Shown here: positions 2,752 through 20,442 of the stretch, in pieces | Layout of the letters: the number at the start of each line of letters is the position of its first letter | Position numbering within the stretch: position 1 is the first letter of the stretch | Origin: a virus | Reading direction: 5' to 3' (one strand) | DNA length: 21,663 nucleotides | Virus record (IMG/VR): IMGVR_UViG_3300047560_001207 | Location: 1 to 21,663 of that record | Notes under the pieces: generated by a model | The model's database searches: none | What the model saw: only the letters and a program-made list of their open reading frames with translations | What the model was told of the DNA's origin: nothing | Program-made: the position numbers and the translations under genes

Positions 2752-5700
2752 TTAAGTCTTCTTTATTTCGCTATACCAAATTCCTGGGCGAGCTTTTAAG
2801 AATTGCGCAATTCTGTTATTATCAACTTGGATATTAACAGCAGAATCCCATGTAGTTCCTTGGCGTTTTACAACGTCAATACGGGTGCCAAAAATAGGTG
2901 CATCACGTAATGTGATAACGTTTGTGGCGCCATCTACTGTAAATTCAGCATCAAACGAAACGTCGCCCTCTGGGCTATCTGGGTATGTCGCAGGGCTGTA
3001 CACCTTATACGGTACTTTCTTAAGTCTAACCCCGCCCACAAATACTTCAATTTCGTTAACGCTTGCTGGAATAAAGTCTAAAGTAACAGTAGTTGTTCCA
3101 TCAGAATCAATTTTTCTAACAATATTTTGTTCAGTATACGGCAATGTTTCACTAGCACCAATTTCTTGAACAATAGTACCGATAGCGTGTAGTTTTCTAA
3201 CACCAGTACCTAACGTACCTCTGCGAAGTTGGCCTAAAATATTTCCGTTAACAGTAAAGTATTCAATACGCTCACCGTCAATTTCAATAATACCAGGCTT
3301 GTTATTTGTAGGGCTTGGTAAGTCAAAGTTGCTTGCATCTAAAACTTCAATAGTTGTATCTGTTGGGAGAAGCTCTCTAGCTAAGTTAGTTTGCTTATCT
3401 AAACTTAAACGTTTGAAGATAACTCTGTTAAGAATATCTTTAAACTGCATGTAGGCAATACCCGTAGTTAGAACATTATTACCAAACGAAATAATAGTAA
3501 ATTCGTCAGATACAATTGGCTCTTGTAACAACTTAATAGATACTTTGTCAGGCATTACCTTAAAGTCAATGCTTGGAATTAACAAGTTACCGTTTTTAAC
3601 AACCCATACAAAATTATCATTAAGAACTTCTCTATCAAGCGGCAATAAACCACTTGCTAGATTCTTGTATGAATAATACAACGGAGTGTTAGGTGTTAAT
3701 GACAAGCTAGATGTAATGTTAACAATAGTTCGTTGTATATCTAAAATATCGTGATTATAGGAACTAATAACCTCTATCTTATTTTCAGGTCCGTATGCCT
3801 GTGATAATTTAATTCTAGGTGGCGTACCATTTACAGATGGAATATACTCATACCCTTGCCCTTTCTTAACACTAATAACTAAAGGTTTATTCTTGTATTT
3901 GTTATAAACTTTCTTAGTGATAGAAACTGTAATACCGCTTAGGTCAATCTTGTAATCAACAATAGGTGTCAGTATCTTTCCGTCTGCAAATACAGAAATT
4001 TCACTAACAGAAATGCTGTATGGAACAAACTTAGCAGGATCGATTGTAAAGTCCTTATTATTATTTTCAATAGTGTAGTAACTGTTGTTCGGTCCTAATA
4101 AGATTTTTTGATCCACTCTAACAATCATGCTTGTTTCAACAGGCAATGCATCGCCGATAATGTTTGCTAATGCATATGTATCCGACCCATTACCATTAAA
4201 CTCTTCTGATTTTGTAATTGCAAATGTTTGTTGATTGCCGTTTACAATAATAAAGTTAACTAGATCGCCCACTTCTGGTGGAGTAATAAATCTAATACCT
4301 GTACGATTTGAACTTTCATACGATAAATCTGTTTGGAATAACTCTACAACTGCAGGTGTACCGTTAACATATACAATGTATGTAATATTATCTAGCCACG
4401 GTGCCTTTGTAATAAACTCTTTAGTAGATCCATCGCCAACAAAGTAGTCAAGGTCTAAGATGTTAGATCCGTTAAATCCAATACTAAACACAGAAATATA
4501 TGTTCCTTCTGGAATTGGATTATTAAATCTAACAGTTTTTGTTTTATAATCAAATACATAGTCTGCAATTTTTTCTTTAATACCAATAGATGTTTTAACA
4601 ATAATTGCATCTTTGCTGTTTGGTTGTTGGCTCAATTCGTAGTCTAAAGTTGTGCCATCGCTAACAAAACTGTCAACCTTGATCATTGCAGATCCGGTAC
4701 TTGGTCTGTCAAATACCTTAATCGCAACTGTGTCTGCAACTTGGCCTGGCACAACTTCCTCTGGACCAGAACTTGTTGTAAGTGTCGAGAAGCCGTCACC
4801 GTCAACAATAATCTCGTCTGCTGTTTTACCAGTAGCAGTTGTAAATATTCCACCTAATCTTTCTAAGGATCCACCAGTCAATGATGTATCAAAATCAGAA
4901 TCTGGTGTTTTAATACTACCATCGCTAGTGCTCTTACGGATAATAATCTTGTCACCGTCTGCTATAGGATAATCGTTAGGAATTTCTACAACATTTGTGT
5001 TTCCTGTAGCAATTATAGGTAACATAACTGCGTACTGGCTTTGCTCAGGAGTACCAAACTTAGGATCATCAATTCTGAAAATATCAAAGTATCCTCCTAG
5101 TTTAATAACTGCGCCGGCTACAAGCGGTTCATTTAATGTAATTAATCCTACAACTGGGTTGGAATAGTCAACTGTTGCTACTAATGTTCTTGTAAACACA
5201 GCGTCAACGTTTGCAGGAATGGCTCCAAAAAACACTTGATCCATTTTAACTGTATTAGATACTGCAACAATTTGAATTACTTTAGCTGTGTAAGATACAG
5301 ATGTGTAGTGTGACGGTATTGTTAAAATATCGCCAACTAACAATCCATCTACATCATCTAATACTAGCGTATCAGAGCCCACAATGATATCGGTAGAAAC
5401 ATTCTTTGTTATCTCTGCTGTAACATTTAATGGTGTATTCATGTAAATGTTCCAGTTGTAATCTAATGTAGATCCATCGGATACATAAGAATCAATGTTG
5501 TAAGATGAATGATAAACGTTTAATTCTTCATTTGCACTTGGTGTATAAGGCAATGTAAAGGAATGTGTATCAGCAGCAACAGTAACGATAAAGTCATCGA
5601 ATGTACTGTCAAAGCTATCCCATTTATCTGAGTAGTAAGGGTTTCCTCCCCAGCCGCGACTGGTTTCAAATCCCATACCGTTAACAATTACACCACCGTA

Positions 5701-8700
5701 ATCAATTCCAGTCATTAACTGACTTAGGTCCTTGCCTATTTGACCAACTGTTGGATCATAATAGAACTGGATTCTATCCGCTGCATTTAATAACGACCAA
5801 TCTTTTAGATATGTAATAGCTATTACATCATTCTTAGCAGGCGCAGTAGTAAACACAATAGAACCGTAATAACGTGTATAACCTCTATCTGTAGATTTAA
5901 CAATACCTAATTGGTATGTGTCGCGCAAGGCTGCAACACCGTTAATAGTAACCGTAGAAGTTCCAATGCGAACGTCCGGTCCCCAAATTAAAGGCCATTG
6001 TAGTCTAGAACCTGTGCCTGTAAATGTTTCAGTTTGTTGTAAGTCATTAATAAAATACGAGTTTGTTATACGGTCAAACTTCATTCTAATCAATGTTGAT
6101 CTTACAGGGCTATTACCAATAATAGCAACTGCTCTTGCAGGAGTGCCAGTGGTGTTTAATCCGCCATCTAAAACAATAGTAGGGGCACTTAGGTATCCGT
6201 GTCCAGGTGTTAACAATACAATTCTGTTAACCTTACCGTTAGCAATAAACGCTCTTGCAGTTGCACCAACACCGGAGTCACTAATAAATTTTACAATTGG
6301 TTCAGAAATATATTCAGTACCGTTGTCAACAATCTTAATGTCAGTAATTTCATATCCTGCATTGTCTAGCCAATGTCTCCATGGATACTCTAGCAATTGA
6401 GCATTAGTTGATGTAATTTTTCCAGAGGAAACTGTTGCATTTACAGTAGCAATTCCTCCGTTTTGATATGTTGGAGGAAGGTCAAAGTCAGTAATTACAG
6501 ACTTAGTGTTATCAAGTCCGCTGTAATTGCTAACGTATTCTCTAACTTTTGTTCTGTATGGTTTAACTTCGTTAATATACGATTCAAAGTCGCTAAGGTT
6601 GTCGTTGTTATATGTAACCTTTTGTGACAAGTTACCAACGTTGTGTTGTACCTTAACAAAACTTGTTTTAAACGCCCAATCAACATAATTTTGTTCGCTA
6701 ATAGCATATCTTAACCCAGTAAAGAATAGATTTAAATATTCTGTTCTAAGCTCATTTATAAAGATGTCGTTCTTTAATGATTCTAAAATATTTCTTAATT
6801 CTACATACGCAGAGTTATCAAAAATACTTCCGTCATACAATGAACCGTCATAGCCATAAACACTATCAATAAACTGATACAATGAACTAGAGAACTGTAT
6901 TGTTCCATTTTCTATACCAACAACTGAGTAACTTGCTGTCCAATCAATTGAATCAACATCAGAATATTTGTGCAACAGTACCCAGTTGTTAGAACTATCA
7001 GTTAACACTTTAACAATTTGTCCAACTGTTGACGGAATACCGCTTAGTTCTGCAAAAGTGTTTACAGCATAATCAATAGCAGTAAACTGACTGTATCCTG
7101 ATGCATACCAATCAACATATGACCAGTACTTTCTTGTGTCGTATGTTTGACTTAATGTTCTTGACCAAACTTTTGTTGTTTGTTCGTAAGCATAGATACT
7201 CCAGCTACCTGTTGCTTGAGAATCTGCTCTAACTAATGCAGAGTAGTTTCTTAAAATAAATGTTGTTGAAGAATCGTAGCCAATACCTGATTCAATAATT
7301 GAAGCGCCTGTTACTTGCCCAGATGCATTAATGATTGTTTTAATTTTTGCACCGGATCCTGATCCAATAATTTCAATGAACGGGGGATTTACATATCCGT
7401 TACCTTTGCTAATAATGTTAACGTCGACAATTCTTCCGTCAACAATTACAGGAGTCAGTATCGGTTTAATAAAGTTTGTTGTAACTGCTAGTCTTAATTC
7501 AGCATCAGTATCTAACACAACGTCATACATTCCTGTAATTACGTTAGGTTCAGGGTCGTACTTTTCAATGTTTGAAAGATTACGTTGCGTTGAGATTTGA
7601 TTTTTAATCAATACTCTATTTGCTTGTTCAATGATTTGTTTTAATGCTTCAAATCTATTAACAAACATGCTTTGCAATGGACGGTTTTCAATACCATAGC
7701 GTAGTTTAACTGGCAATGTTAAATCAGGAACAACTCTTCCGTTAAAATCTTTACCGCATAAACTATCAATCCATTTTTGTTCAATTGCTGTCGGAACCAA
7801 TGAATTAACATCGTTACTAATTAACTTCCATTGTGTGTGAACGTTCTTATCAGTCTTATCAACAGTCCAGTATTCAACCGATAATACAACGTTAGCATCT
7901 TGTAATAATGGCTTAACGTTTACTAAGCTAAAACTGTTAGAACTTGTTAATGCAAGGTATTTGTATCCTTGACCACGTGGGTTTTCAATCAACGATGCAA
8001 CATCTTTAGATGATATTTTGCGTGAAGAAATATTTGGTACTGTTGTTTTATTTTTAACCCAGTAGTAGTATGTGTATTTGATTGTTTTGCTTACGTTGTC
8101 GTATCTAGCTGTTCTACTATAAACATCGTTACCATATAAAGTAGTACCACTTATACCTTGGACTAATCCTTCTTCTGTGTCAGCAATAGCGTTCCATGCA
8201 TCTGGCAACAATGTAGACGATACCCATTCGTAAACGTCAATGCTTGCGTTAGGAAATAATGTCGACCATGTACTATTTCTATAAACAATGTCGTTGTCCG
8301 AGCTATCTAGGAACTTAGCAGTTCTTAGATCCCACCATAACATACCTACTTGTGTTGAACCCCATTGGATACCTTCATCAACGTTAACGCTACTTGTACC
8401 AGTGTAATAAGTTGCAGGGTCATAGTATGTCTTATACTTAATTTCTTGTTCTGCAATGCCAGGAATCTTGCCCTGTGTTGGGTCAAGTACATCTATATAA
8501 GAAACTAGTTTGTTAGTTAATGAGTTATACAAGAATGCCTGTTTAATCTTAGAAACATCTGGCTTGTCAATTTGTCTATGGATGATTTCCCACGACGACG
8601 AACCATTAATCTTACTGTATTGATATACTCTTCCAGAAGTATAAGATTGATCGTCTGCGCTCGGTGCGCCGATAAAAATGTTATTAGATCCAACTGCAAA

Positions 8701-11700
8701 TCCTGCACCATAACCGTCACTAGAATTAGATGGGTTAGCAATGCTTTCACCAAATACCCAAACATCGCCGTAGCGATCATAGATATCAATTTTACCAGTT
8801 CCATTGTTACTAAACACTACCAAAGTTGCATAATCGTTCATAAACGATACATTAGCACCAAAGTGTGCCGATGCTGAACCTGTTAAAGTTTGTAATGGTT
8901 CTTGACCACCGTTCATCCAAATCTCAACTGCACCTGCATTTGTATCAGCATTGCTGTTACCAATTGCAATGTATGAACCGTCAGTAGATAAAGATAGTGC
9001 CGATCCGTAACCAATTGTGTCGCCTAATAAACGCACAGGTAACTGGAATCCATTTTCGTCTTTATTGTAAACATAAACTGCACCAGGATCATTTGCATTA
9101 ATTGCCATTGTAGAACCATCTCTACTAATTGCAATTTTTGTACCAAACCCTGTATCACCAGCTTCTGTTGGAGAATAGGTAGTATTACCATACTGCCATC
9201 TTGTTAAAGTAAATTCAAATGTCCCAGACGGATCGCTATCCGGTGCTGCACTTAATGCAAGAGTTGAAGAATCTATAACCTCAAGTACTGTTTGACCTTT
9301 AGTAAAACCAGTACCAACAATAGCCATTCCTGGATAAATTACACCAGCAACAGACGACACTTTAAGAATAGTATCGCCACTGCCAACTGGGTTATATGAT
9401 GCTGTTGCTTCTGTTGTTGTCTTATATTCTAATTGGTATACAAGACCGTCACCGTTACCCAATGCGCTAACAAAAAGTGTATTCTCTCCAAACACTAGGC
9501 TTGAACCAAACAGCTCGTCAGTTTGTGGGTTAGGACTTAATATTGTATCTACTAATGTAAAAATGTTGTTTGGGTCTTTCTTATAGATAGAAATAACGCC
9601 CTGACTAGTAAAGTCTGAATTTGCACCATTCGCATTTACAGGAATATAAGGAACTTTTTTCCAATACTGTAAATTAGTATCAGGTGGATAATCAACATCC
9701 GGTAGTTCTGCAACTACTTGATAGAATCCTGTCTTAGACGGTGTCAAAGAAGTAAAGTGTACTATGCTGCTAAGATCGTAAAGAGACGTATTGTCCCATT
9801 CACCTACATAGAATGATGCAACATTATTAGCACCAGGAGTGCCGGAAGCTAACCACGTGCCGTCAACTGAAATTGCTAACACATCACCTGTCAAATCATC
9901 AGAAGTTGGTTGAATAACTGGATCAAACCCAACCGTTAATGATATAAATGGTGCTGTAATTGTTTGGCGTTCTACCCAAGGCAACGCAGGGGTAATGTTA
10001 TCATAAACAATAATTTGGCCTTGACTATTTGTAATAGCAGCAATATTACCACGAGTGTTAATTAACACTTGTCTGCCGTATGCTAAACCATCTTGTGGAA
10101 TGGCATTAGGAATTTCTGCTTTAGTGTAAACAGGATAATGTTGCCATGTTGCCCACTTTCCAGTACCGTCGTTATCTGTCCAAACAAGTTCGCCTGGCTT
10201 GATACCATTTGTAAACAATGAATCAACATTGTCAATAGTAGAAACACGCTGGCTTGTAATTGTATAGATTTGTGTTTCGTTACTAATTGCAAAAGGTTGC
10301 GGAGGGCTTTTAACTTCTTTACTAATTGTAAATGTGTTAGAAGCAACAGATACAACCTTATAAAAACCGTCAATTAAAGATGAATTAACAATACCTACAT
10401 ATTCGCCTTCGGCAAATGATACTGCGCCACTAAGTGTTAGTGTAACTTGTTTAGACGAATTGTTGTAACTCGAACTCTCCACTGTGTAAGATGTTAGAGT
10501 ATATCTGTAAACGTTCCAGTCTTGTTTTTCAAATCCGCACCAAATATAATCACCGTCTGCATAGTTTGTTATAGTTTCTAATAAAATATTATCTATAGAA
10601 GTTAGTGTTGTTTTAACTTCGTTAGAACGAACATAACCAGGTGTTCTTAAGAAAGGTTTAAAGTTTTTAATTACTGGCCATGGATTATTATTGTAACCTA
10701 AAGGTTTTAAATAAACATCGTTTGGAGTTTGTCTTACAATAAAATCAATAACACTAGTATCAACAGTTGAAACTAATTCTAATCCTTGAGGATTATTTTT
10801 AAATTGAGATTCATCTAATTTAAATTCAATATTTTCAAACGCAGCACTTGCTCCGTACTGACCAGCACGTAATGCCCATTCTTCATAGAATTTTAAACTT
10901 TCTTGATCTTCTGCACTTAGAACATCAAATAGTTTATTAAGTACATTTTGTGTACCTTTTTCTTGAATCATACCTTGATAGAATTTAAATTCGCTAACAT
11001 CATCTTTAATAATGTTGTCAAGGTACTGACGTTTCTGATAACCAACCAAATGTTGAGATAGCTCTTGTTGAGTTAAATCAAAATTGTCGCTATCTAAACT
11101 ATAAAAATCTAAGAACTGTCCTGCTTTGTAAGACCAGTTAGGCAACAATTCTTGTGTTGGCTTTTTATCTAACTTAACCCACTGGCTGTCAACAAACGTC
11201 TCGCCGCCTGGGATAAAAGATTGCGCACTATAATAGAATTCTTTGTACTTAACAATGTCACCAAGTGCATAATCTTGCCACGAGCTCCATGCATTAATCT
11301 TTGCTTGGTCAAATACAAATCCAGGAATATCAAATCCACCGTACCAATCTGCACTAGTATAACCAGATACCTTAATGCGCTCTTGGCGGTATCCACTCAT
11401 TGGATTGTAAATTGTATCATTAAAGATAGTTGTATTGTTAATAATTGCAACTTGTTCTTGCTGAATCAAATAGAACGTAGCGCCATAGATGCCATCTTCT
11501 GTTTTCGGTGTATAGCTAACAGCGTTGTCTTCTCTGTATGAATTCAAGAAGTTAGGCTCTAATGGAGTACCGTCAACTTTAAAAATTTCATAGTTATTAA
11601 ACGGATTCTTAATATCATCAACAACACTTAAAGGTGAAGTAAATGTAATTTTAGATGCACTCGGGCTTAACGAAATAACAGAACTGCCGACCATGCTTAA

Positions 11701-14700
11701 ACCGTCAAGCTGGGCAAAGTCTTCGTCAATAAAGAATGGGTTTGCAGGAGAGTTTCTTAAAGCTCTGTAATATAAACCATTGTATTTTACAATAGATCCA
11801 ACACTAGTTGGTGTATCAGGTAACCAGTCTTCCCACTTGTCTTCTCCAGTACTCCAGTTTTGTGTTGTCCAGAATAAGAATTCCTTAGCACTAGTTTCCC
11901 AGTTAGTAACTGCACCTAGTGTAGGATTAAATTCGTCAAAGATGAAACCTTGATCTTTTAAGTACTCGCCATACCCTAATAAGAAATCAACAACAGACTG
12001 TACGTCTGTAAACTTAGTACCATAAGATACAGTTATAGCTTCTGTTCTATCCCAGCCTTTTCTAAATTGTGCTGTTCTTCCGCCAACAACAGGCAATGAC
12101 GGTAACGCTTGATAATATTTTACGTCAAATGTCGAGCCTGCTGTGTGCAGTACTTGTGATCGGTAATACTTGTTGTTATATTCAACAATTTTACCAGCAG
12201 CATATTGTTCGCCGCCTGTCCAGATGGAATACGTTTCCGAAATGCCGCCGATGTTAACAGTAATTCCGTTTTGTGTCCATGGATAATATTTAAAATAAGG
12301 TGTTGAAAAATTGTAACCTTTTAGTTCAAATCCGTCTGACAACTTTGTAATAATTACACCACTATAAGAAATTTTCTTAATAGGGCTAGACGAATTCAAA
12401 ACAATTGAATAGTCTTCTTGCGGTACAAAAACACTTCCTTGGCTTAAAGGAGTTTTACTATCTAAAATTAGATTGAACTTTTCTTTACTTGTAAATGCGC
12501 CAATTCTGTATGATAATTTTGAAAGGATATTATCTAAATCATACTGGTATGCGTTATAAGATTTTAAGTTGTCGCTTAAAATATAATCAACAATGTAGTT
12601 AATAATACCAGCAGTTTGTACGTTTGTGCTGCTAGAGTAAATGCTAGGCAACACAATATCTGCTGGTCTAAGTCTTAAACCAGTTTCTTTATAAACAAGT
12701 TGTCCTGCAATGTTTCTAACAATTCTCGATCTGTCTAATAATACACCAAATGTCTTAGATGGTTGCATTAACATTGATGCAAGCAACACACTAAATGGAT
12801 AGTAGCTGCTACGTCTCCATGCTGCTTCAATAGGGCTAATATCTCCAAATACGAAATCTCCAGAAGTTGTAATAGTAATAATACCTTCAACTAACCCGGA
12901 GTCGATTGGGCTTACTAATTCACCTGAATGATTTACAGGAATGCTGTTTAGCAAATAAGGTCTAACATATTTTTTATTAACAACTGGAGGAACATTAGGT
13001 TCTCTTATTGTACCAGTAGACAAATCTGTCCACATCGGAATGTTGTCGTTTGTATAAGGAGCAGGTCCGTATTGTTCTGTCCACCATGTTGGCTCTTCAG
13101 AGAAGCCTAACATTTCCCAAGGACATAAGTGAGGACGATCTGTGTCTAATATCCACTGATAGACACCTCTCCAATACCCCGGAGTTTCTCTACCATCGGG
13201 TGCTGTATGACCTTTATAGTTATAAGTGAATGAATTAGTTCTGTCATAGCTCATTGGTTTTGTAAAATCTTTATCTACAAAAGTTAACCACTTGTAAAAG
13301 CTAGGAGCAAGAACTTCATTAAATTCTTTTAACGAATAATTGTTTTCTTTGTTGTATGATGGTACTAAATCGTTAACATCAAAAATGTCAACATCATATT
13401 TTACTTTAATGTTGTTGTAAATTCTTTTTTCTAATTCAAGAATTAAATCGTCTCGATAGTCACCGTATGCTAATACTAAACTACCGTCGTGACCTTGTAT
13501 CATTTCACGAGGTGTTAGTAATGTAGTGTCTAGATATTTCTTAGGCTCATACTTTGGCCAAATGCCTAGTTTTGTAGGTGTAGCAGGTACAAACGAACCG
13601 CTAGTATTTTCATACTCATAGATTGTAATAGTATCACCATTTACTAAATCAACTTGGTCAGTAATAACAATAAATCCTTGATTACTAAAGGTATAATCTT
13701 TACCAAATAAAATTTGATTATCGTTATGGTAAACGATAACAGCTCTTGATGATAATTCATCAAGGCTAAACACTTTATTCAAAGGATATGTTCTAATTCT
13801 GTAATCAACAACAGTTAGGTCAGCTTTAATATAAGCACCGTAAGGTACCATGTCACTGAAATAATAAGGAGAAGTCTTAGGTTTGTCCTTATTAATTTTT
13901 TCTAAAATCAAGTCAACTTGACGAATTGGATCTGCATCAATGCCTAAGTTTTCTGCTGTAATAATAAAACTACGTTTAAACTTGTTATAATCGTCTCTTG
14001 CTTTTTCAATAGCTCTAACAACGTTATTTGTTTCAGATGTAATGTGATACACAGACAAACTCATTGGGCCGCTGTGCTGTACAAACTTAGTACCGTAAGA
14101 CGTAATGTCCCCTAAGTCTCTTAAATTATTTGCACCAGGATAGCTTCCTGAAAATGTTGATAAATTGTCAACAATAGAGTTAACGTGGTCGCTTACTTCG
14201 CCTAGTGTAAATGTTGTAATAGAATCGTTAAATGGATTATTTTGTAAATTTACAGGAATTTCATAATAACCATTTTTGTTAATAGGCTGCTTTGCAAACG
14301 CTCTAATTGTTAGTACATCGCTAGTTGAAATAGCTGTATTAAGAATAACTTTCTTATAAACAACTCCGTCAACTAATGTCCAGTTTTCTTTACCTAGACG
14401 AATCCCGTTAACATATACCTTAACTACTAAATCAGAAAGATCTGTAATATCATCAAATAAGTCGATATCAAAGTTATTTGTTTTATTTGTATTTTTATAA
14501 ATTCTTACTGCTGCTTGAGTTACGTCAGCTTGACAGATTTGCCAGCCGTTTGTATATGAAGTAACTCCGATGTCAGAAGTTCGTTTTAAAAATCCTACAT
14601 CAATTGTTTGTGTAAGAACTTTGTCAACTGTTTTGTATTGGAAACTATCTGTTAATAAATCAAAGTTAAAAACAATGTCACCGATGTTGCTAATATTTTT

Positions 14701-16479
14701 ATAAGATAATGCAAATCCTAAATTAGAATCTGTTGTACCTGTACCAATCTTATAAGAAAATAATTTTGTTCCGCTAAATGTAGAACCTGAATAAACATCA
14801 GTATCGCTATAGCTGTAACCGTTTGAATCAAATGCATCAAAGTACGGCGCCTGATTTAAAGATGTTTTTTGCTGTCCTAGTATCCAAGTCGATCCATTGA
14901 ACCAGTACATTTGTCCTTGGTTCTTTGTACCTTGTTTAACTAAAACTACATCACCTAATGTCGGTTCAGTTTCTAATTCAAGGTGGATTTGTCTAACACC
15001 GTCAATGGTTACATAGGTAACTTTGTAAACGTTGTTTTTTACTAATCTATCAGGGTCGTTAACAAACAGCACTCGTTGATTTTGTGCTAATTGAATTCCG
15101 TCGACGTTGTAACCTAAGCTACCTTCGATATTAGAAAACACGTCTGTTGTAAATGTATCAATTAAGTCAACATCTGCGATTGCTCTAATACCAAAGTTAA
15201 AAAGTTTTAAGTTTTCTTCAAATTCAATAATAGGGCGAACAGCACGAGAATCTTGATTAATATCAGGAATCTTTCCATTATATGCGGCGCTTGCCTCAAT
15301 AACACTCTTGTGGAACCAACGGTTATTTCTGCTCCAAGGGTTCTTGTCTTGGCTTCCTCTGTTAATAACAATGTAGTCGCGCTTACCAGAGAAACTTGTA
15401 GCATCGCTAAATGGCATTGCATCGAAAGGCGTTGCATCAAATAAAATTGATTCTGCACTAGAATAAGAAGATACAATTTCTAATACTGTTTCATTGATTA
15501 ACTTAATTGACTTGCCAACGCCTTCAACATAGTAAAAACCTGTTGCGTAAGACGCAGGGGTAACATTGCCAATGAAACGAACTTTCATACCATTACTTAA
15601 AGGTGTTCCGTTTGATAATGTATAGTTAATTTTTCCAATGATTTCTTCTTCAACATTAATTGTTGTATTGTAGTTCAAAGATTGAACTTGGAAAATACCA
15701 CCTAAGTCAACGTCTGACTTGCTTACATAATATAGCACGTCTGGAGCATCGTAAGGAACTGTAAAAGTAATAGTTCCAGATTCCGTACCGTTGTTTGTTA
15801 ATAAATCAGATGTATAAACATCATACTCGCCAGGTGTTCTAACAGTTTTAATTGTAAAAGGATTGCCTGGACTATTAACGTTAAACTTATAAGTTTGTCC
15901 TCTATATAATTTAACAGTAGGATTTCTTGTTAAACCGTTAGGATAAAAAACAAACTCGTTACTATCGCCTTCTGATTCAACTACAATTTCATATTCACTT
16001 GTTACCGAATCTTGTACATCAGTAATAGTAATCGCATCGGGACCATACGGTAGCCAGTAATATTGTTGGAAGTTAACAAACTTGTCCCAGTCAATGTGAG
16101 GATCCCAAGAATAAAATTCTTGTTTATTAATACGATCGTGATTAGTTGTGTTGCTACCAAATACACTTAACTGATTAATATAATCAATATAATCTTTAAA
16201 AAACGTTGTATTGCCCAGCTGGTCATTAATTACAAATCCTGGCTCTAGCTGATAATTTTGTCTATCACTATCCGGAGCTGCAATAAAAATATCGCTGCCT
16301 GTGGCTGCTTTTGCATTTTCGCGACCAATGTAACCGTTAATTTTCTTAACAGTTCCTGACTGCGTTAACTGGTCAACTGTTGCTTGTAAAAACTTTTTGT
16401 TAGCATCCGATTGGAAGAACTTTGGCAAAAAGTTGTAGCTACGGCCACCGTTTGCATTTGGATTAATTTGGTCCGACAT
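2752..16479 (-). CDS. Giant modular baseplate-associated structural protein, 4575 aa
   Basis: One uninterrupted frame starting at an ATG that overlaps the gp6 stop (TAATG), with GGGAG inside the end of gp6. Its slot matches T4 wedge proteins gp7 and gp8, but it is several times longer. The N-terminal half carries blocks I recall from large structural proteins of marine T4-like phages: FLPKFFQSDANKKFL (about 17-31), PTKLGIWPKYEPK and GDYRDDLILELEKRIYNNIKV (about 964-1020), WEMLGFSEEPTWW and YGPAPYT (about 1110-1135), QGFIFDEFNP, and KFYQGMIQEKGT. Four carbohydrate-binding-like modules lie near 1420, 1549, 1731 and 2228. A seven-bladed propeller spans about 2130-2640. Paired 39-residue glycine repeats sit at 3026/3065 and 3387/3426. 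From about 3485 to the end there are repeated beta-sandwich units and an ERIEYF-LRRGTLGT domain (about 4360-4447). It probably forms the outer wedge or periphery of the baseplate; adhesion is inferred from the modules. Structural role is fairly sure, exact T4 equivalence is not. Confidence 0.85.
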   Translation of the reverse strand: MSDQINPNANGGRSYNFLPKFFQSDANKKFLQATVDQLTQSGTVKKINGYIGRENAKAATGSDIFIAAPDSDRQNYQLEPGFVINDQLGNTTFFKDYIDYINQLSVFGSNTTNHDRINKQEFYSWDPHIDWDKFVNFQQYYWLPYGPDAITITDVQDSVTSEYEIVVESEGDSNEFVFYPNGLTRNPTVKLYRGQTYKFNVNSPGNPFTIKTVRTPGEYDVYTSDLLTNNGTESGTITFTVPYDAPDVLYYVSKSDVDLGGIFQVQSLNYNTTINVEEEIIGKINYTLSNGTPLSNGMKVRFIGNVTPASYATGFYYVEGVGKSIKLINETVLEIVSSYSSAESILFDATPFDAMPFSDATSFSGKRDYIVINRGSQDKNPWSRNNRWFHKSVIEASAAYNGKIPDINQDSRAVRPIIEFEENLKLFNFGIRAIADVDLIDTFTTDVFSNIEGSLGYNVDGIQLAQNQRVLFVNDPDRLVKNNVYKVTYVTIDGVRQIHLELETEPTLGDVVLVKQGTKNQGQMYWFNGSTWILGQQKTSLNQAPYFDAFDSNGYSYSDTDVYSGSTFSGTKLFSYKIGTGTTDSNLGFALSYKNISNIGDIVFNFDLLTDSFQYKTVDKVLTQTIDVGFLKRTSDIGVTSYTNGWQICQADVTQAAVRIYKNTNKTNNFDIDLFDDITDLSDLVVKVYVNGIRLGKENWTLVDGVVYKKVILNTAISTSDVLTIRAFAKQPINKNGYYEIPVNLQNNPFNDSITTFTLGEVSDHVNSIVDNLSTFSGSYPGANNLRDLGDITSYGTKFVQHSGPMSLSVYHITSETNNVVRAIEKARDDYNKFKRSFIITAENLGIDADPIRQVDLILEKINKDKPKTSPYYFSDMVPYGAYIKADLTVVDYRIRTYPLNKVFSLDELSSRAVIVYHNDNQILFGKDYTFSNQGFIVITDQVDLVNGDTITIYEYENTSGSFVPATPTKLGIWPKYEPKKYLDTTLLTPREMIQGHDGSLVLAYGDYRDDLILELEKRIYNNIKVKYDVDIFDVNDLVPSYNKENNYSLKEFNEVLAPSFYKWLTFVDKDFTKPMSYDRTNSFTYNYKGHTAPDGRETPGYWRGVYQWILDTDRPHLCPWEMLGFSEEPTWWTEQYGPAPYTNDNIPMWTDLSTGTIREPNVPPVVNKKYVRPYLLNSIPVNHSGELVSPIDSGLVEGIITITTSGDFVFGDISPIEAAWRRSSYYPFSVLLASMLMQPSKTFGVLLDRSRIVRNIAGQLVYKETGLRLRPADIVLPSIYSSSTNVQTAGIINYIVDYILSDNLKSYNAYQYDLDNILSKLSYRIGAFTSKEKFNLILDSKTPLSQGSVFVPQEDYSIVLNSSSPIKKISYSGVIITKLSDGFELKGYNFSTPYFKYYPWTQNGITVNIGGISETYSIWTGGEQYAAGKIVEYNNKYYRSQVLHTAGSTFDVKYYQALPSLPVVGGRTAQFRKGWDRTEAITVSYGTKFTDVQSVVDFLLGYGEYLKDQGFIFDEFNPTLGAVTNWETSAKEFLFWTTQNWSTGEDKWEDWLPDTPTSVGSIVKYNGLYYRALRNSPANPFFIDEDFAQLDGLSMVGSSVISLSPSASKITFTSPLSVVDDIKNPFNNYEIFKVDGTPLEPNFLNSYREDNAVSYTPKTEDGIYGATFYLIQQEQVAIINNTTIFNDTIYNPMSGYRQERIKVSGYTSADWYGGFDIPGFVFDQAKINAWSSWQDYALGDIVKYKEFYYSAQSFIPGGETFVDSQWVKLDKKPTQELLPNWSYKAGQFLDFYSLDSDNFDLTQQELSQHLVGYQKRQYLDNIIKDDVSEFKFYQGMIQEKGTQNVLNKLFDVLSAEDQESLKFYEEWALRAGQYGASAAFENIEFKLDESQFKNNPQGLELVSTVDTSVIDFIVRQTPNDVYLKPLGYNNNPWPVIKNFKPFLRTPGYVRSNEVKTTLTSIDNILLETITNYADGDYIWCGFEKQDWNVYRYTLTSYTVESSSYNNSSKQVTLTLSGAVSFAEGEYVGIVNSSLIDGFYKVVSVASNTFTISKEVKSPPQPFAISNETQIYTITSQRVSTIDNVDSLFTNGIKPGELVWTDNDGTGKWATWQHYPVYTKAEIPNAIPQDGLAYGRQVLINTRGNIAAITNSQGQIIVYDNITPALPWVERQTITAPFISLTVGFDPVIQPTSDDLTGDVLAISVDGTWLASGTPGANNVASFYVGEWDNTSLYDLSSIVHFTSLTPSKTGFYQVVAELPDVDYPPDTNLQYWKKVPYIPVNANGANSDFTSQGVISIYKKDPNNIFTLVDTILSPNPQTDELFGSSLVFGENTLFVSALGNGDGLVYQLEYKTTTEATASYNPVGSGDTILKVSSVAGVIYPGMAIVGTGFTKGQTVLEVIDSSTLALSAAPDSDPSGTFEFTLTRWQYGNTTYSPTEAGDTGFGTKIAISRDGSTMAINANDPGAVYVYNKDENGFQLPVRLLGDTIGYGSALSLSTDGSYIAIGNSNADTNAGAVEIWMNGGQEPLQTLTGSASAHFGANVSFMNDYATLVVFSNNGTGKIDIYDRYGDVWVFGESIANPSNSSDGYGAGFAVGSNNIFIGAPSADDQSYTSGRVYQYSKINGSSSWEIIHRQIDKPDVSKIKQAFLYNSLTNKLVSYIDVLDPTQGKIPGIAEQEIKYKTYYDPATYYTGTSSVNVDEGIQWGSTQVGMLWWDLRTAKFLDSSDNDIVYRNSTWSTLFPNASIDVYEWVSSTLLPDAWNAIADTEEGLVQGISGTTLYGNDVYSRTARYDNVSKTIKYTYYYWVKNKTTVPNISSRKISSKDVASLIENPRGQGYKYLALTSSNSFSLVNVKPLLQDANVVLSVEYWTVDKTDKNVHTQWKLISNDVNSLVPTAIEQKWIDSLCGKDFNGRVVPDLTLPVKLRYGIENRPLQSMFVNRFEALKQIIEQANRVLIKNQISTQRNLSNIEKYDPEPNVITGMYDVVLDTDAELRLAVTTNFIKPILTPVIVDGRIVDVNIISKGNGYVNPPFIEIIGSGSGAKIKTIINASGQVTGASIIESGIGYDSSTTFILRNYSALVRADSQATGSWSIYAYEQTTKVWSRTLSQTYDTRKYWSYVDWYASGYSQFTAIDYAVNTFAELSGIPSTVGQIVKVLTDSSNNWVLLHKYSDVDSIDWTASYSVVGIENGTIQFSSSLYQFIDSVYGYDGSLYDGSIFDNSAYVELRNILESLKNDIFINELRTEYLNLFFTGLRYAISEQNYVDWAFKTSFVKVQHNVGNLSQKVTYNNDNLSDFESYINEVKPYRTKVREYVSNYSGLDNTKSVITDFDLPPTYQNGGIATVNATVSSGKITSTNAQLLEYPWRHWLDNAGYEITDIKIVDNGTEYISEPIVKFISDSGVGATARAFIANGKVNRIVLLTPGHGYLSAPTIVLDGGLNTTGTPARAVAIIGNSPVRSTLIRMKFDRITNSYFINDLQQTETFTGTGSRLQWPLIWGPDVRIGTSTVTINGVAALRDTYQLGIVKSTDRGYTRYYGSIVFTTAPAKNDVIAITYLKDWSLLNAADRIQFYYDPTVGQIGKDLSQLMTGIDYGGVIVNGMGFETSRGWGGNPYYSDKWDSFDSTFDDFIVTVAADTHSFTLPYTPSANEELNVYHSSYNIDSYVSDGSTLDYNWNIYMNTPLNVTAEITKNVSTDIIVGSDTLVLDDVDGLLVGDILTIPSHYTSVSYTAKVIQIVAVSNTVKMDQVFFGAIPANVDAVFTRTLVATVDYSNPVVGLITLNEPLVAGAVIKLGGYFDIFRIDDPKFGTPEQSQYAVMLPIIATGNTNVVEIPNDYPIADGDKIIIRKSTSDGSIKTPDSDFDTSLTGGSLERLGGIFTTATGKTADEIIVDGDGFSTLTTSSGPEEVVPGQVADTVAIKVFDRPSTGSAMIKVDSFVSDGTTLDYELSQQPNSKDAIIVKTSIGIKEKIADYVFDYKTKTVRFNNPIPEGTYISVFSIGFNGSNILDLDYFVGDGSTKEFITKAPWLDNITYIVYVNGTPAVVELFQTDLSYESSNRTGIRFITPPEVGDLVNFIIVNGNQQTFAITKSEEFNGNGSDTYALANIIGDALPVETSMIVRVDQKILLGPNNSYYTIENNNKDFTIDPAKFVPYSISVSEISVFADGKILTPIVDYKIDLSGITVSITKKVYNKYKNKPLVISVKKGQGYEYIPSVNGTPPRIKLSQAYGPENKIEVISSYNHDILDIQRTIVNITSSLSLTPNTPLYYSYKNLASGLLPLDREVLNDNFVWVVKNGNLLIPSIDFKVMPDKVSIKLLQEPIVSDEFTIISFGNNVLTTGIAYMQFKDILNRVIFKRLSLDKQTNLARELLPTDTTIEVLDASNFDLPSPTNNKPGIIEIDGERIEYFTVNGNILGQLRRGTLGTGVRKLHAIGTIVQEIGASETLPYTEQNIVRKIDSDGTTTVTLDFIPASVNEIEVFVGGVRLKKVPYKVYSPATYPDSPEGDVSFDAEFTVDGATNVITLRDAPIFGTRIDVVKRQGTTWDSAVNIQVDNNRIAQFLKARPGIWYSEIKKT
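2885..6034 (-). repeat. C-terminal array of beta-sandwich units in the giant protein
   Basis: The last ~1,090 residues contain repeated openings of the form F/Y-x-G/S-D/N-G-S/T followed by alternating hydrophobic residues: FTGTGSRLQW (about 3485), YVSDGSTLDY (3668), FVSDGTTLDY (3941), FVGDGSTKEF (4016), FNGNGSDTYA (about 4096) and FTVDGATNVI (about 4515). Each is followed by a turn of the type VYVNG or VFADG and a strand pair ending in a GD or GT turn. The spacing is irregular, so other domains are interleaved. Together they look like a string of small beta-sandwiches, as found in long tail-fibre-like proteins. Confidence 0.6.
3140..3400 (-). other. ERIEYF / LRRGTLGT beta domain in the giant protein
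   Basis: Residues about 4360-4447 read as DTTIEVLDASNF, then PGIIEIDGERIEYF, then LGQLRRGTLGTGVRKLHAIG. I know this pattern as a recurrent module near the C-terminus of large structural proteins in marine T4-like phages. Its function is unknown. It precedes the last beta-sandwich unit of the chain. Confidence 0.55.
6085..6355 (-). repeat. Second pair of 39-aa glycine-rich repeats in the giant protein
   Basis: DNGTEYISEP begins its motif near residue 3387 and GHGYLSAPTI at 3426, exactly 39 residues later. Each is followed by a GxGA or TGTPA segment and a turn leading into the next strand. The layout matches the pair at 3026/3065, but the first copy is degenerate (NGTEY instead of GxGY). Confidence 0.6.
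7225..7450 (-). repeat. First pair of 39-aa glycine-rich repeats in the giant protein
   Basis: GNGYVNPPFIEI begins at residue 3026 and GIGYDSSTTFIL at 3065. The linking part, GSGSGAKIKTI then GQVTGASI, follows the pattern GxGY-xxPP-x-I/V, GxGxGA, G-x-V, I-x-x-x-G-x-GY. This pattern recurs in large phage structural proteins. Its biochemical role is not known to me. Confidence 0.65.
9205..9395 (-). other. Beta domain inserted in propeller blade 3
   Basis: Residues about 2362-2425 read GSGDTILKVSSVAG, YPGMAIVGTGFTKGQTV, then DSSTLALSAAP. This is a recurrent small domain of phage structural proteins. It lies between the YQLEY strand and the TRWQYGNTTYSP segment, which I read as the two sides of blade 3. 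Confidence 0.5.
9650..9808 (-). other. Carbohydrate-binding-like module 4, inserted in propeller blade 2
   Basis: Residues about 2225-2277: EWDNTSLYDLSSIVHF, then GFYQVV, then PPDTNLQYWKKV. The W...Y...IV...Y...P...YW pattern resembles the small CBM5/12-type (chitin-binding type 3) fold. It is more divergent than modules 1-3. Confidence 0.5.
11165..11300 (-). other. Carbohydrate-binding-like module 3 in the giant protein
   Basis: Residues about 1728-1772: AWSSWQDYALGDIVKYKEFY, then YSAQSFIPGG and SQWVKL. This is the clearest match of the four to the WxxxxxYxxGDxVxYxxxxYxA...W pattern of CBM5/12-like modules, with aromatic residues at W1731, W1734 and W1767. Confidence 0.6.
11690..11840 (-). 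other. Carbohydrate-binding-like module 2 in the giant protein
   Basis: Residues about 1548-1597: WEDWLPDTPTSVGSIVKYNG, then LYYRALRNSP. It has the same pattern as module 3: W, then G-x-I-V-x-Y-N-G-x-Y-Y-R-A. Confidence 0.55.
12100..12230 (-). other. Carbohydrate-binding-like module 1 in the giant protein
   Basis: Residues about 1418-1460: SIWTGGEQYAAGKIVEYNNK, then YYRSQVLHTAG and YYQALPS. It follows the W-xx-G-xx-Y-xx-G-x-I-V-x-Y-N-x-x-Y-Y-R-S pattern, with W at residue 1420. Confidence 0.55.
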
Positions 16480-19400
16480 TAATTACTACTCCCGTAAGTT
16501 GAACTTGTAATAGATTGTTGAGCTATTGAATTTGAACTAACTGTTGTGCCTGCTACTGCTTTAATAGTGCTTGCAGTAATACCAGAAATAATTTCAATAT
16601 CAGATACTGTTGCATTACTAATAAACAATTCGTCATTATTAGAATGTATTTCAAATAAACTACCGAAACCTAACCCGCTTTGCTTTGGAACAATAACAAA
16701 GCTAGTAATATCTGGTGATAGTTGATTTACAACATATGTTGCTAATTCTGTAAAATAGAATGTATCGCCAAAGTCCCAATTATCTAAACTAAAGAACTGA
16801 TTAATTGCTAAAACAATTCTTGATTTAACATCATTATCTGAAACTACACGACCAGGATTCTTTACAACTTTAAATGTTGCTTGCAACTCCGAACTTGCAG
16901 CACTACCAAACAATACTTTATATTTTACTGGATGGTAGATAATTTCATCACTAATAGATTTAATTAAATTTAACTCAGGTGATAAGATATCATACAATTC
17001 GTCATTGGCTGGAGGTAAAGGTTCGTTTGCAATAACTCCAGCTACATATTGTCTATAATTTGTATCGTAATTCTTTGTTAATACAAACACGTCAATAATA
17101 TTGCTTGCGCCAGCATCAATTCTGCTGTCATAATCTGCGCTATGGATGTATTGGAATTTTAATTTATCTCTACCAACAAATACTTTATAATCCAACGTGG
17201 CATTAAATTCGCCAGTTGCATAAGTGTACTTTTTCACAACGCTAGAATCTTCAAAATAGAAATACTGACCGTCTTTCTTGTCATTCAATGTTACTGAACT
17301 TTGCGATGATCTAATTAAAACAGTATTTGAAGAATTATCAAAATATCTGTAATCTTCTTGGCCAGAGGTAATTTGATATTTTTCTAAAACTACGTAATAG
17401 TTGTTTGTAGGATTTGCAGAATCATATACAATGTTTGTAAAAATTTCTGGATCATCTACAATTCCGTTGTCGTCAGTGTCAGCAAATGTAACTAACAATT
17501 TCTTAGTATCAACATATCCATCTAGACCAATAAATCCACCATCAACATCCCACGGATAGTCAACTGTGAATGCACTAGTATTGTTTTGTTGCAAGTTAAT
17601 GCTTAAAATATTAATCTGGTCTTTAATAACAGAATCTGTTCTGCTATCAAAAATCTTTTTAGATTCATCAAAATAGAATCTAACTTGCTTGTCGCTTTCA
17701 AAGATGTAACGTTGCTCTCTGCTCTTAACAGTATAAGTTACGTTGTCTGTTGTGAATAATATCATCCAACTTGCATCTTGTTGTTGTCTAGTTGTACTGC
17801 CTGCTTTAGATAAACTAAATGGGCTAACAATATCTAAGTTAGCTTCAAAAATAATTTGCCAGCTTTGGCTATCTCTATCGTAACGTAGACCAAATGGTTT
17901 GTTTGCAAAAATTAAATCTACCATTGTAGAAATAACTGAACTATCAATAATAGTTCTCCACTTAGGAATAATTCTAGTAATAACTGGACGTGCAGCAGAG
18001 TTAGATGGAATAGCACGGTTTAAAGTAATTGGACCAAATCCTGTAGATAGTACACCTGTGTTGTTAGCAGTACCGTCGTCAACAACATTAACAATTTCTG
18101 CCCAAATGTTTGTTACTGCGCCTTCAGAAGTACCATCGCCGTATACCAATGCGTTTGCATTTTTTGTATCAAAGTAATAACCTGTAGGTGCAGTAAAGTT
18201 AATTAAAGAACCTGCTGTGAAATATTTTAAATCGCCACTAGATACAAATGTGCCTACTCGTGAAGGAGTTCCCGAACTAGTACTTACATAACCAGTAGAT
18301 GCATTTGAATCTGTTGTAACGTTATACCATGTAACATTTAAACTTTCAATTTGTTTAATAAACTCTGAATAATAAAAATTTCTTAAACTTTTCTTTGATA
18401 AAATGTCAAATACATTATTATAGATAATACCTGTAATATCAGTTTTTGTTTGATATGTAAATGTTGTTTGGCTTGTAAACTTTTCTTTATAGACTATCCC
18501 GTCGTCAGCAAATAGTGTTGTTGAACTGTATTTTCCTGTTGGGTCAACAAGGTCAAAGTAACGACTAATACCGCTGCTTGTGCGGTTAATAGATTTAATT
18601 TTTGCTACTGCTGTAGTTACAGACAGTGGACTAATGTTATAGTCTTCGCCAGTAATCATTCTATTTTGTGTATAGAATGTCGATGGGGCATTTGCTTTAA
18701 TGCTATCGTTAGACTCGGTTGTAGCAGCATTAGAAACACTAGTTGCCAAGTTTAAGCTAAGTGTTAATGTTTCGTTTTGTCCTGTTGCAGAAATGTAAGG
18801 GAAAGAAATAGAAACGTTGCGAATATCGGTTGCACTAATTGTATATTGTAATCCGTTACTTACACGATAGTATGTGCGGAATGTACCAATTGGCAGATTT
18901 CCAAATGTACCGTCACTAAATTGCAAACTTACTGCATCGTTTACTCTGGTTAATACAGAATAAATGTTTCTAATGTTTTTGTTTAAGCTATTATAGATAA
19001 TGTTGTTTGATTCAAAATTAGAAACTTGAGACCATGTTTCGTACTCTAATCCATTTTGATCAATCTTGTACAACCATACGTCACTATTATTAATATTTTG
19101 TGCATCAATATCAATTGACTGATTGCTGCTTGGTTGTGTAATTGTAAACGTACCTGTGTTTAATGTACCTTGTACAAAACGTAAGAAGAAACCAGATCCA
19201 GGGCTGCTAGCACCATGGCCGTCATCTCTGTAGATACAGCTAATTTGATTTCCTATTGCTGGAGGATCTTCATAAATGTAGTTTTGTCCCTTGAAAGTTG
19301 TACTTGTAATTTCAAAGTTCATAGGACGACCAGCAACTGTCTTTGTAAATGTAAAAACAGGAACACTTGTTGAAATATTGTTAAACTGGTAGCGTTCTGT

Positions 19401-19949
19401 TGGAATACCGTAAACTGTCCCGCTATCAGCAGGGTTACCAAATTGCTGAATTTGTGGGAAACTAGCATTAATAACTTTAATAAACTGGTCATACCAGTTG
19501 TTGTTACTTGGGTCATTCCAAATAATAACTTGTCCGGACATATTACGGCCGTTACTATCTAAAACTGACTCAGTTGTACTAATGCTATTAAACTTTAATA
19601 ATCCAGACGCAGCAACGTTTCTTTTAGCATTATAGCTAATTAGACGTGCTAAACGCAAAATGCTGTCGCGGCGCTCTGCTAGTTCTAAGAAGTTTTCACG
19701 AGCATTTAAATCAACACGGAAAGCTATGCTTTGGCCCAAGAACGCAATAAGGTCAATTAGGGCAAGGTATTCGCTAGACTCAATGTAATCGTTGAAATCT
19801 TCTGGATAATTGACTCTAATGTAATCAATCATTGTACGACGCAAGTTTTCAAAGTCATAGCTCTGGAAATCTGCGTTACGGAAACTTTGGTAAATTCGCT
19901 TCCAATCTTCTGCTGCAAGCAGTCTATTTTGTCTAGTTGTTACGCTCAT
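16479..19949 (-). CDS. 6: gp6-type baseplate wedge protein, enlarged (1156 aa)
   Basis: Wedge subunit that in T4 forms the inner ring binding gp25 and gp53. A longer frame exists from a TTG at 19967, but the ATG at 19949 has AGGA six bases upstream and reads MSVTTRQNRLLAAEDWKR, so I take it as the start. Residues 46-106 have the gp6 signature: NYPEDFNDYIESSEYLALID, LGQSIAFRVDLNARENFLEL and ILRLARLISY. Residues about 417-465 carry the baseplate-J-like block, NAPSTFYTQNRMITGEDYN. Residues about 1050-1070, NWDFGDTFYFTEL, match the conserved gp6 C-terminus. T4 gp6 is 660 residues; the excess is beta-rich sequence between the J-like block and the C-terminus, including an EF-hand-like loop at 824-835. 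It lies between gp25 and the giant gene, overlapping the latter by one base. Confidence 0.9.
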   Translation of the reverse strand: MSVTTRQNRLLAAEDWKRIYQSFRNADFQSYDFENLRRTMIDYIRVNYPEDFNDYIESSEYLALIDLIAFLGQSIAFRVDLNARENFLELAERRDSILRLARLISYNAKRNVAASGLLKFNSISTTESVLDSNGRNMSGQVIIWNDPSNNNWYDQFIKVINASFPQIQQFGNPADSGTVYGIPTERYQFNNISTSVPVFTFTKTVAGRPMNFEITSTTFKGQNYIYEDPPAIGNQISCIYRDDGHGASSPGSGFFLRFVQGTLNTGTFTITQPSSNQSIDIDAQNINNSDVWLYKIDQNGLEYETWSQVSNFESNNIIYNSLNKNIRNIYSVLTRVNDAVSLQFSDGTFGNLPIGTFRTYYRVSNGLQYTISATDIRNVSISFPYISATGQNETLTLSLNLATSVSNAATTESNDSIKANAPSTFYTQNRMITGEDYNISPLSVTTAVAKIKSINRTSSGISRYFDLVDPTGKYSSTTLFADDGIVYKEKFTSQTTFTYQTKTDITGIIYNNVFDILSKKSLRNFYYSEFIKQIESLNVTWYNVTTDSNASTGYVSTSSGTPSRVGTFVSSGDLKYFTAGSLINFTAPTGYYFDTKNANALVYGDGTSEGAVTNIWAEIVNVVDDGTANNTGVLSTGFGPITLNRAIPSNSAARPVITRIIPKWRTIIDSSVISTMVDLIFANKPFGLRYDRDSQSWQIIFEANLDIVSPFSLSKAGSTTRQQQDASWMILFTTDNVTYTVKSREQRYIFESDKQVRFYFDESKKIFDSRTDSVIKDQINILSINLQQNNTSAFTVDYPWDVDGGFIGLDGYVDTKKLLVTFADTDDNGIVDDPEIFTNIVYDSANPTNNYYVVLEKYQITSGQEDYRYFDNSSNTVLIRSSQSSVTLNDKKDGQYFYFEDSSVVKKYTYATGEFNATLDYKVFVGRDKLKFQYIHSADYDSRIDAGASNIIDVFVLTKNYDTNYRQYVAGVIANEPLPPANDELYDILSPELNLIKSISDEIIYHPVKYKVLFGSAASSELQATFKVVKNPGRVVSDNDVKSRIVLAINQFFSLDNWDFGDTFYFTELATYVVNQLSPDITSFVIVPKQSGLGFGSLFEIHSNNDELFISNATVSDIEIISGITASTIKAVAGTTVSSNSIAQQSITSSTYGSSN
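17445..17480 (-). other. EF-hand-like calcium loop in gp6
   Basis: Residues 824-835 of gp6, DTDDNGIVDDPE, fit the canonical 12-residue EF-hand loop: acidic or Asn at 1, 3, 5 and 9, Gly at 6, a hydrophobic residue at 8 and Glu at 12. The residues before it (KLLVTFA) look like a beta strand rather than an E helix, so this is the loop without the usual EF-hand frame. Confidence 0.55.
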
Positions 19950-19955
19950 GATATG

Positions 19956-19959
19956 TCCT
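19956..19959 (-). promoter_or_regulatory. Ribosome binding site that fixes the gp6 start
   Basis: AGGA on the minus strand, six bases before the ATG at 19949. It lies inside the short extension that would be coded from the TTG at 19967, which argues against that earlier start. Confidence 0.65.
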
Positions 19960-19966
19960 AATATCA

Positions 19967-19976
19967 ATATTTAGCT
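19967..19976 (-). promoter_or_regulatory. Late-promoter-like element upstream of gp6
   Basis: AGCTAAATAT on the minus strand in the 47-base gap between gp25 and gp6. The CTAAATA core (19968-19974) ends 18 bases before the gp6 ATG. It is identical over ten bases to the element upstream of the 198-aa gene. It resembles the T4 late promoter TATAAATA. The proposed transcript would have a very short leader holding only the ribosome binding site. Confidence 0.6.
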
Positions 19977-19996
19977 GATAAAATTATGTGGGTATA

Positions 19997-20440
19997 TTAT
20001 CCTGTAAGCAATCCGTTAGCTGTATCAAAGCGTAATTGCATAACTTGTTGGATGTTATAAAGCAAATATTTTAAGACACATTCAATTTGTATTCCGGACT
20101 CGTAACTTGTTACCAACACATTTGTAGCAGTTACTCTTGGGTCGTAATTTATAATTGTGTTAACGTTTTCTGTAATAAGATGTTGAACTTCAGGTGTTAA
20201 TGGCTCATACAATAAGTCCCAAATTACACATCCGAACCCTGGATTCATCAGGCGTTCGCCCTGACGAGTATTAAAATGATTTAACAAGTCTTGTTGAATT
20301 AATTGTAAATCAAACAATCCAAAATTTTCTGAATCAGGATTAATAGTACTAAAACCCCTATACATTTTTTGTCTAGGCGCCTCAAACTTATTAGAAGATC
20401 TTAGTACAATTTTGTCATATAAATTAGAATTTGAAGCCAT
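19997..20440 (-). CDS. 25: gp25-type baseplate wedge / sheath-initiation protein
   Basis: Small wedge protein related to T4 gp25 and type VI secretion TssE. It joins the baseplate and nucleates sheath polymerisation. At 147 residues it has the usual family length. The core reads FNTRQGERLMNPGFGCVIWD (about 56-75), then LLYEPLTPEVQ (76-86), then a helix ENVNTIINYDPRV and a final two-strand segment. The family's Glu-Pro-Arg motif appears here as Glu-Pro-Leu (79-81). The start at 20440 follows GGAG in the last codons of the spike gene, 2 bases after its stop, so translation is probably coupled. The neighbours gp5 and gp6 are what the family would predict. Confidence 0.93.
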   Translation of the reverse strand: MASNSNLYDKIVLRSSNKFEAPRQKMYRGFSTINPDSENFGLFDLQLIQQDLLNHFNTRQGERLMNPGFGCVIWDLLYEPLTPEVQHLITENVNTIINYDPRVTATNVLVTSYESGIQIECVLKYLLYNIQQVMQLRFDTANGLLTG

Positions 20441-20442
20441 TT

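Follow-up and report, generated by a model that had tools for sequence, protein, structure and literature searches.

A predicted seven-bladed integrin-type propeller with one-sided insert variation in a giant baseplate-cluster protein of aquatic phages

Fold of the propeller

A closed seven-bladed beta-propeller of the FG-GAP or integrin-alpha type is predicted within a giant virion protein encoded on a viral DNA of 21,663 nucleotides (IMG/VR record IMGVR_UViG_3300047560_001207, positions 1 to 21,663; this whole stretch is called the window). The protein of 4575 residues is encoded in a single open reading frame (ORF) at 2752..16479, and the propeller, residues 2119-2622, lies at 8614..10125. 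All window features given here with coordinates are on the minus strand. The giant ORF was matched by the profile phrog_10938 (virion structural protein) with 1133 bits over five stretches. Among relatives the propeller carries inserts that vary mainly on the face opposite the two chain ends, and this outer face putatively makes contact with the envelope of the host cell, a reading to which a probability of about 0.5 is given.

A model was calculated with AlphaFold2 from residues 2115-2650 together with 55 aligned homologous sequences. Confidence was high, with a mean predicted local distance difference test (pLDDT) of 92.8 and a predicted template modelling score of 0.90. The strand order in the model gave seven blades, with four strands in each of blades 1-6 and three in blade 7. 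Blade 1 comprised residues 2138-2174 (9958..10068), blade 2 residues 2200-2313 (9541..9882) and blade 3 residues 2324-2435 (9175..9510), the latter two including an insert each. Blades 4 and 5 followed at residues 2444-2485 (9025..9150) and 2490-2533 (8881..9012), blade 6 at residues 2540-2581 (8737..8862) and strands A-C of blade 7 at residues 2590-2622 (8614..8712). From the strand order and the alignment to integrins, the outer strand of blade 7 is probably supplied by a strand at the N-terminal end of the domain, residues 2119-2123 (10111..10125), in the manner of a velcro closure. The preliminary description, made from the window sequence, had placed the domain at 8570-10090, close to the limits found here, and had proposed five blade starts at residues 2325, 2444, 2490, 2541 and 2589. 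FG-type motifs were found within one residue of each, at 2324, 2445, 2491, 2540 and 2590, and the two earlier units needed to make seven were recovered in the model as strand A of blade 1 (residues 2138-2140) and of blade 2 (residues 2200-2203).

The fold comparison pointed to integrins. With VIA-align, the best 50 of 968 aligned chains were all integrin alpha, with Z scores from 33.6 to 30.8, about 330-357 aligned residues and root-mean-square deviations of 3.1-4.2. These alignments spanned the whole ring, from model residue 1-3 to 510-521; model residue 2 corresponded to integrin residue 1, and the end of the ring at about 510 to integrin residue 449. When Foldseek matches were ranked by E-value, WD40 proteins were on top and integrin 1tye was among those listed. 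A sequence profile search of the PDB gave a single hit at E 0.01 or better, and this was integrin alpha-L (E 3.5e-4). Prediction thus supports one closed ring of seven blades, as the preliminary description had anticipated.

That the region could consist of unrelated repeats and form no propeller draws on the fact that the window sequence alone stayed under the Pfam cut-off for FG-GAP_2 (19.9-20.4 bits against a cut-off of 23; E 8e-4). FG-GAP_2 was, however, matched by 51 of 55 homologous slots, the slot being the region between the conserved flanks of the giant protein, with a best E of 1.1e-17 and up to 64 bits in relatives, so that the sub-threshold match in the window is not due to chance. 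Together with the model and the integrin matches, this makes the absence of a propeller hardly credible.

Inserted modules

Two inserts were seen in loops of the modelled propeller, as the preliminary description had proposed for blades 2 and 3. Insert A occupies the loop between strands B and C of blade 2 (loop 2B-2C; approximately residues 2217-2291, 9607..9831) and resembles carbohydrate-binding modules (CBM) of families 5 and 12. Insert B, a beta module with the motif GMxVxGTGF, lies in the C-D loop of blade 3 (approximately residues 2355-2427, 9199..9417), where it is flanked by the long strands C and D which run on into it; it matched the module profile with E 6.7e-31. Both inserts are optional among natural relatives. 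In an alignment of 61 sequences the seven core units were always filled, while about 38% of the sequences were without insert A and about 10% without insert B. Five relatives (L034, L056, L073, L082 and L083) lacked both and kept all seven blades, and one of them, L083, was the best FG-GAP match among the slots scanned singly, at 64 bits.

The assignment of insert A rests on its relatives. Pfam CBM_5_12 (PF02839) matched 14 of the 55 relatives' slots, with a best E of 1.1e-5, and in L014 and L067 the match was located in loop 2B-2C. The matches listed in the relatives' slots scored low (20.9-21.7 bits, with the cut-off at 26.2; E 2e-4 to 4e-4), and PF02839 did not match the window's own insert A. 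A profile built from insert A also detected further copies elsewhere in the giant protein. In the window, three more CBM5/12-like modules are found upstream of the propeller in the same ORF, at residues 1420-1447, 1552-1580 and 1729-1757 (12139-12222, 11740-11826 and 11209-11295, respectively), the first of which was the sole Pfam match above cut-off in the giant protein. Module B likewise occurs outside the propeller, with at least two copies in 20 of the 46 full-length relatives that had a match.

Other inserts were observed in relatives. The B-C loop of blade 6 (8794-8808 in the window) carries an insert of at least 13 residues in 53 of 60 relatives, usually of 28 residues with the motif FDxxxTTFDxxxT; it is missing from the window and from L009 and L011, its closest relatives. 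In L065 and L080 an insert of 240 residues is nested within the blade-3 module, and in L188, L198, L211 and L218, with slots of 1250-1385 residues, blade 2 holds an insert of several hundred residues.

Loop variation and proposed function

In beta-propellers the D-A and B-C loops are located on one face and the A-B and C-D loops on the other. By this standard topology the A-B/C-D face was assigned as the tether face and the D-A/B-C face as the outer face, which would place inserts A and B on opposite faces. Given closure of blade 7 by the N-terminal strand, the chain should both enter and leave the ring on the A-B/C-D face, so that the opposite face would be directed away from the remainder of the protein.

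Loop lengths were compared in 56 sequences. Nine of 14 loops on the D-A/B-C face had a length range of at least 20 residues, versus two of 13 on the A-B/C-D face (Fisher p 0.013; Mann-Whitney on the ranges p 0.004), where nine of 13 loops differed by no more than two residues. CBM-like modules were assigned by MAFFT to loops 2B-2C (68 modules), 1D-2A (6), 4B-4C (4), 3D-4A (1) and 3C-3D (12). The 3C-3D placement of the last 12 was rejected: nine of ten modules read by eye come after strand D and thus belong to loop 3D-4A, to which they were reassigned by hand. Local mapping of module positions with hidden Markov models was too noisy and was dropped. On the trees, the CBM-like module of loop 2B-2C required 18 gains or losses, at least five of them forced by well-supported branches, compared with three for the blade-3 module and six for the B-C insert of blade 6; these counts come from quick trees and could be inflated by recombination.

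That variable inserts cluster on the face opposite the chain ends is compatible with a role in recognition or docking, without proving either; surface recognition or protein docking had been suggested in the preliminary description. In the proposed mechanism, the ring would be held through its A-B/C-D face within the giant baseplate-cluster virion protein. The D-A and B-C loops of the outer face would take exchangeable small beta modules, often of the CBM5/12 type, while the tether face would stay almost invariant save for one slowly changing blade-3 module. The outer face could then serve as a fast-evolving surface, displayed by the baseplate, for contact with the host cell envelope. A wider proposal, held more tentatively and at somewhat less than even odds, is that the propeller is a scaffold for module exchange in a large uncultivated lineage of aquatic phages, with one face attached to the baseplate and an exchange of small beta modules among four or more loops of the other face, which would alter the recognition of hosts or partners.

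Several observations weigh against a host-contact surface on the baseplate. The p values for the contrast in length range between the two faces are approximate, because the loops and the sequences are related. The A-B/C-D face is not free of inserts, as shown by the common blade-3 module and an insert of 227 residues in blade 5 of L067. With a simple pattern, none of 110 module copies showed the exposed pair of aromatic residues typical of CBM5; this pattern covered the CBM5 type, as distinct from the single C-terminal tryptophan of the CBM12 type. A carbohydrate function of insert A is therefore unsupported by its sequence, and insert A has likely lost sugar binding. The evidence for presence in the virion is drawn from a homologue that probably has no propeller. 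Mass spectrometry of phage CBB particles detected this homologue, CBB_236, through 21 unique peptides, alongside CBB_237, the gp6-like wedge protein (PMC5259590), which supports a virion role for the giant-protein family; that the CBB protein is without propeller is suggested by its kinship to the proteins of phages 121Q and RaK2. T4 gp7, whose gene likewise directly follows gp6, showed no similarity to either of the two conserved flanks (hhalign probability 0.2%), and T4 gp8 had no hhalign similarity to the downstream flank. Finally, a model of residues 955-1910 of the flank, built from the window and IMG/VR rows and of middling confidence (pLDDT 67.5), had no wedge protein among its listed matches; it matched essentially through its CBM-like modules alone. 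An alignment of the distant flanks contained no stretch conserved enough for scanning.

The main rival, a serious one though on balance less likely, is that other tail proteins such as fibres or spikes dock onto the propeller and its modules, with inserts that change with the partners. Its weight comes from the known occurrence of CBM5/12-fold domains in phage baseplates and fibres: structure matches of this fold included the Agrobacterium phage Milano baseplate with its receptor-binding complex (8fqc), the tail fibres of phage 7-7-1 and the baseplate of an Anabaena contractile injection system (7b5h). The missing aromatic pair and the several CBM-like modules elsewhere in the giant protein agree with docking as well. 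No partner has been identified, however, and 18 changes in loop 2B-2C seem fast for an interface with a conserved partner.

Accumulation of inserts could also be neutral, in that any exposed virion loop might gather small phage beta modules that have no role in recognition. The copies of module B outside the propeller would be expected from such a process. It is nevertheless improbable, since insertions concentrate on one face while most loops of the other hardly vary in length. Moreover, the blade-3 module, with a mean identity of 46%, is better conserved than the core (41%), which neutral addition does not predict; insert A has 32%. Contact of the outer face with the host envelope is preferred over both alternatives.

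Gene neighbourhood

In this lineage of large aquatic T4-like phages, the giant protein is encoded within the baseplate gene cluster. Genes for gp5-, gp25- and gp6-like baseplate proteins are followed in this order by the giant ORF. The gp6-like baseplate wedge subunit is encoded at 16479..19967 (phrog_10646, E 3e-299), the gp25-like wedge protein at 19997..20440 (PF04965, E 1.1e-11; phrog_261) and the gp5-like protein, a baseplate hub or injector protein with an oligonucleotide/oligosaccharide-binding fold, at 20443..21663, where the ORF is open at the window end (phrog_13211, E 4.7e-44). Phage_base_V scored 22.3 bits on the gp5-like ORF, slightly below the cut-off. The repetitive C-terminal part of this ORF, with the pattern GGN.N..SGG, includes a tandem repeat of period 24 at 20642-20720. 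In phage CBB, CBB_236 is likewise located beside the gp6-like CBB_237. The preliminary description had called the giant protein a baseplate protein and had placed the propeller at the baseplate rim. Encoding in the baseplate cluster bears out the first point, while the rim is a location that gene order may suggest.

Distribution among relatives

Relatives were collected from IMG/VR by the downstream flank, the best 80 of 563 being kept, and more were added by means of the propeller and the flank of Paride. The core propeller profile matched 142 of 142 non-redundant IMG/VR slots, with a worst E of 4e-25, a result that is partly circular because the profile was built from most of those slots. 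On the cultivated giants the same profile gave E 0.16 or worse. An earlier, narrower profile had missed five slots; three of these five were read and are clear FG-GAP propellers. In an annotated phage collection, tblastn found no close relatives of the propeller; for the flanks of the giant protein it gave matches of about 25-35% identity in cultivated jumbo phages. The homologues of the cultivated phages 121Q, RaK2, Paride, Atu_ph07 and SCTP-2 are without the propeller. Their slots between the flanks hold non-propeller sequence of about 190 residues in 121Q, 270-300 in Vibrio 2.275.O and Paride, 480 in SCTP-2 and about 1500 in Atu_ph07 and Phosso.

In a quick tree built from the downstream flank, a single change separated six propeller-free cultivated representatives from 99 propeller-bearing rows; the deep order of this tree is unsure because of long branches. 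From these sequences the propeller appears to be fixed in an aquatic phage lineage, for which the analysis turned up no cultivated member. Jumbo genomes are part of this lineage, as its contigs reach 356 kb (L061).

Some features of the cultivated phages were also observed. The slot of SCTP-2 (L008, about 17600-19090) was LamG-like by eye, and that of Atu_ph07 and Phosso (L005 and L006, about 16880-21440) contained many glycine-rich beta repeats. In SCTP-2 the gp6-like gene lies about 90 kb off on the opposite strand (231230-234973 of the record), and a different ORF of 9.3 kb stands ahead of the giant gene.

Significance

Phage tails with propellers are already known, as are viral FG-GAP proteins. 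The open-access literature that was searched gave no phage baseplate with an FG-GAP propeller. As far as this literature shows, three features are new: the presence of an integrin-type propeller inside a giant protein from the baseplate cluster, the fixation of this propeller in an aquatic lineage, and a module exchange that is one-sided. The window's propeller was matched by none of the PHROG families. More than 100 natural variants are available, from bare rings to rings with multiple inserts, and their variation is one-sided. Such a series makes the contact target of a baseplate propeller directly testable. It may also provide a marker linked to host range for this lineage.

Comparison with known systems

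Few propellers are known in phage host recognition, namely those of PRD1 P2, phi11 Gp45 and phiKZ gp131, and their role is mostly unproven (PMC4901313). phiKZ gp131 (PDB 4GBF) has a seven-bladed propeller at its C-terminus and is located at the periphery of a myophage baseplate, where a receptor-binding or enzymatic role has been proposed but not proven (PMC4901313). It was not among the 50 listed structure matches and gave no sequence match, which leaves kinship possible. Its propeller is C-terminal, whereas that of the window is internal to a protein of 4575 residues and carries inserts. The propeller of the phi11 receptor-binding protein Gp45 is closed by an N-terminal strand (PMC4901313), but it has five blades and belongs to a separate trimeric receptor-binding protein of a siphophage.

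The giant proteins of cultivated jumbo phages (121Q gp582, RaK2 YP_007007225, CBB_236, Paride_0436 and Atu_ph07 FDI40_gp180) share the homologous flanks and the place after the gp6-like gene, and differ by the absence of the propeller in those compared. The likeness of insert A to CBM5/12 consists of weak matches of its relatives in some phages, and the aromatic pair of CBM5 has no counterpart.

The integrin alpha propeller is among the closest known systems. Seven blades, FG-type blade starts and closure by an N-terminal strand are shared. The A-B loops of the window are only 3-5 residues long, and the DxDxDGxxD calcium loops that mark several blades in the integrin subset were found in none of 61 sequences. 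An extra domain carried in a loop is another shared property, the alpha-I domain being such a domain in some integrins; the phage protein instead carries small beta modules, and in other loops.

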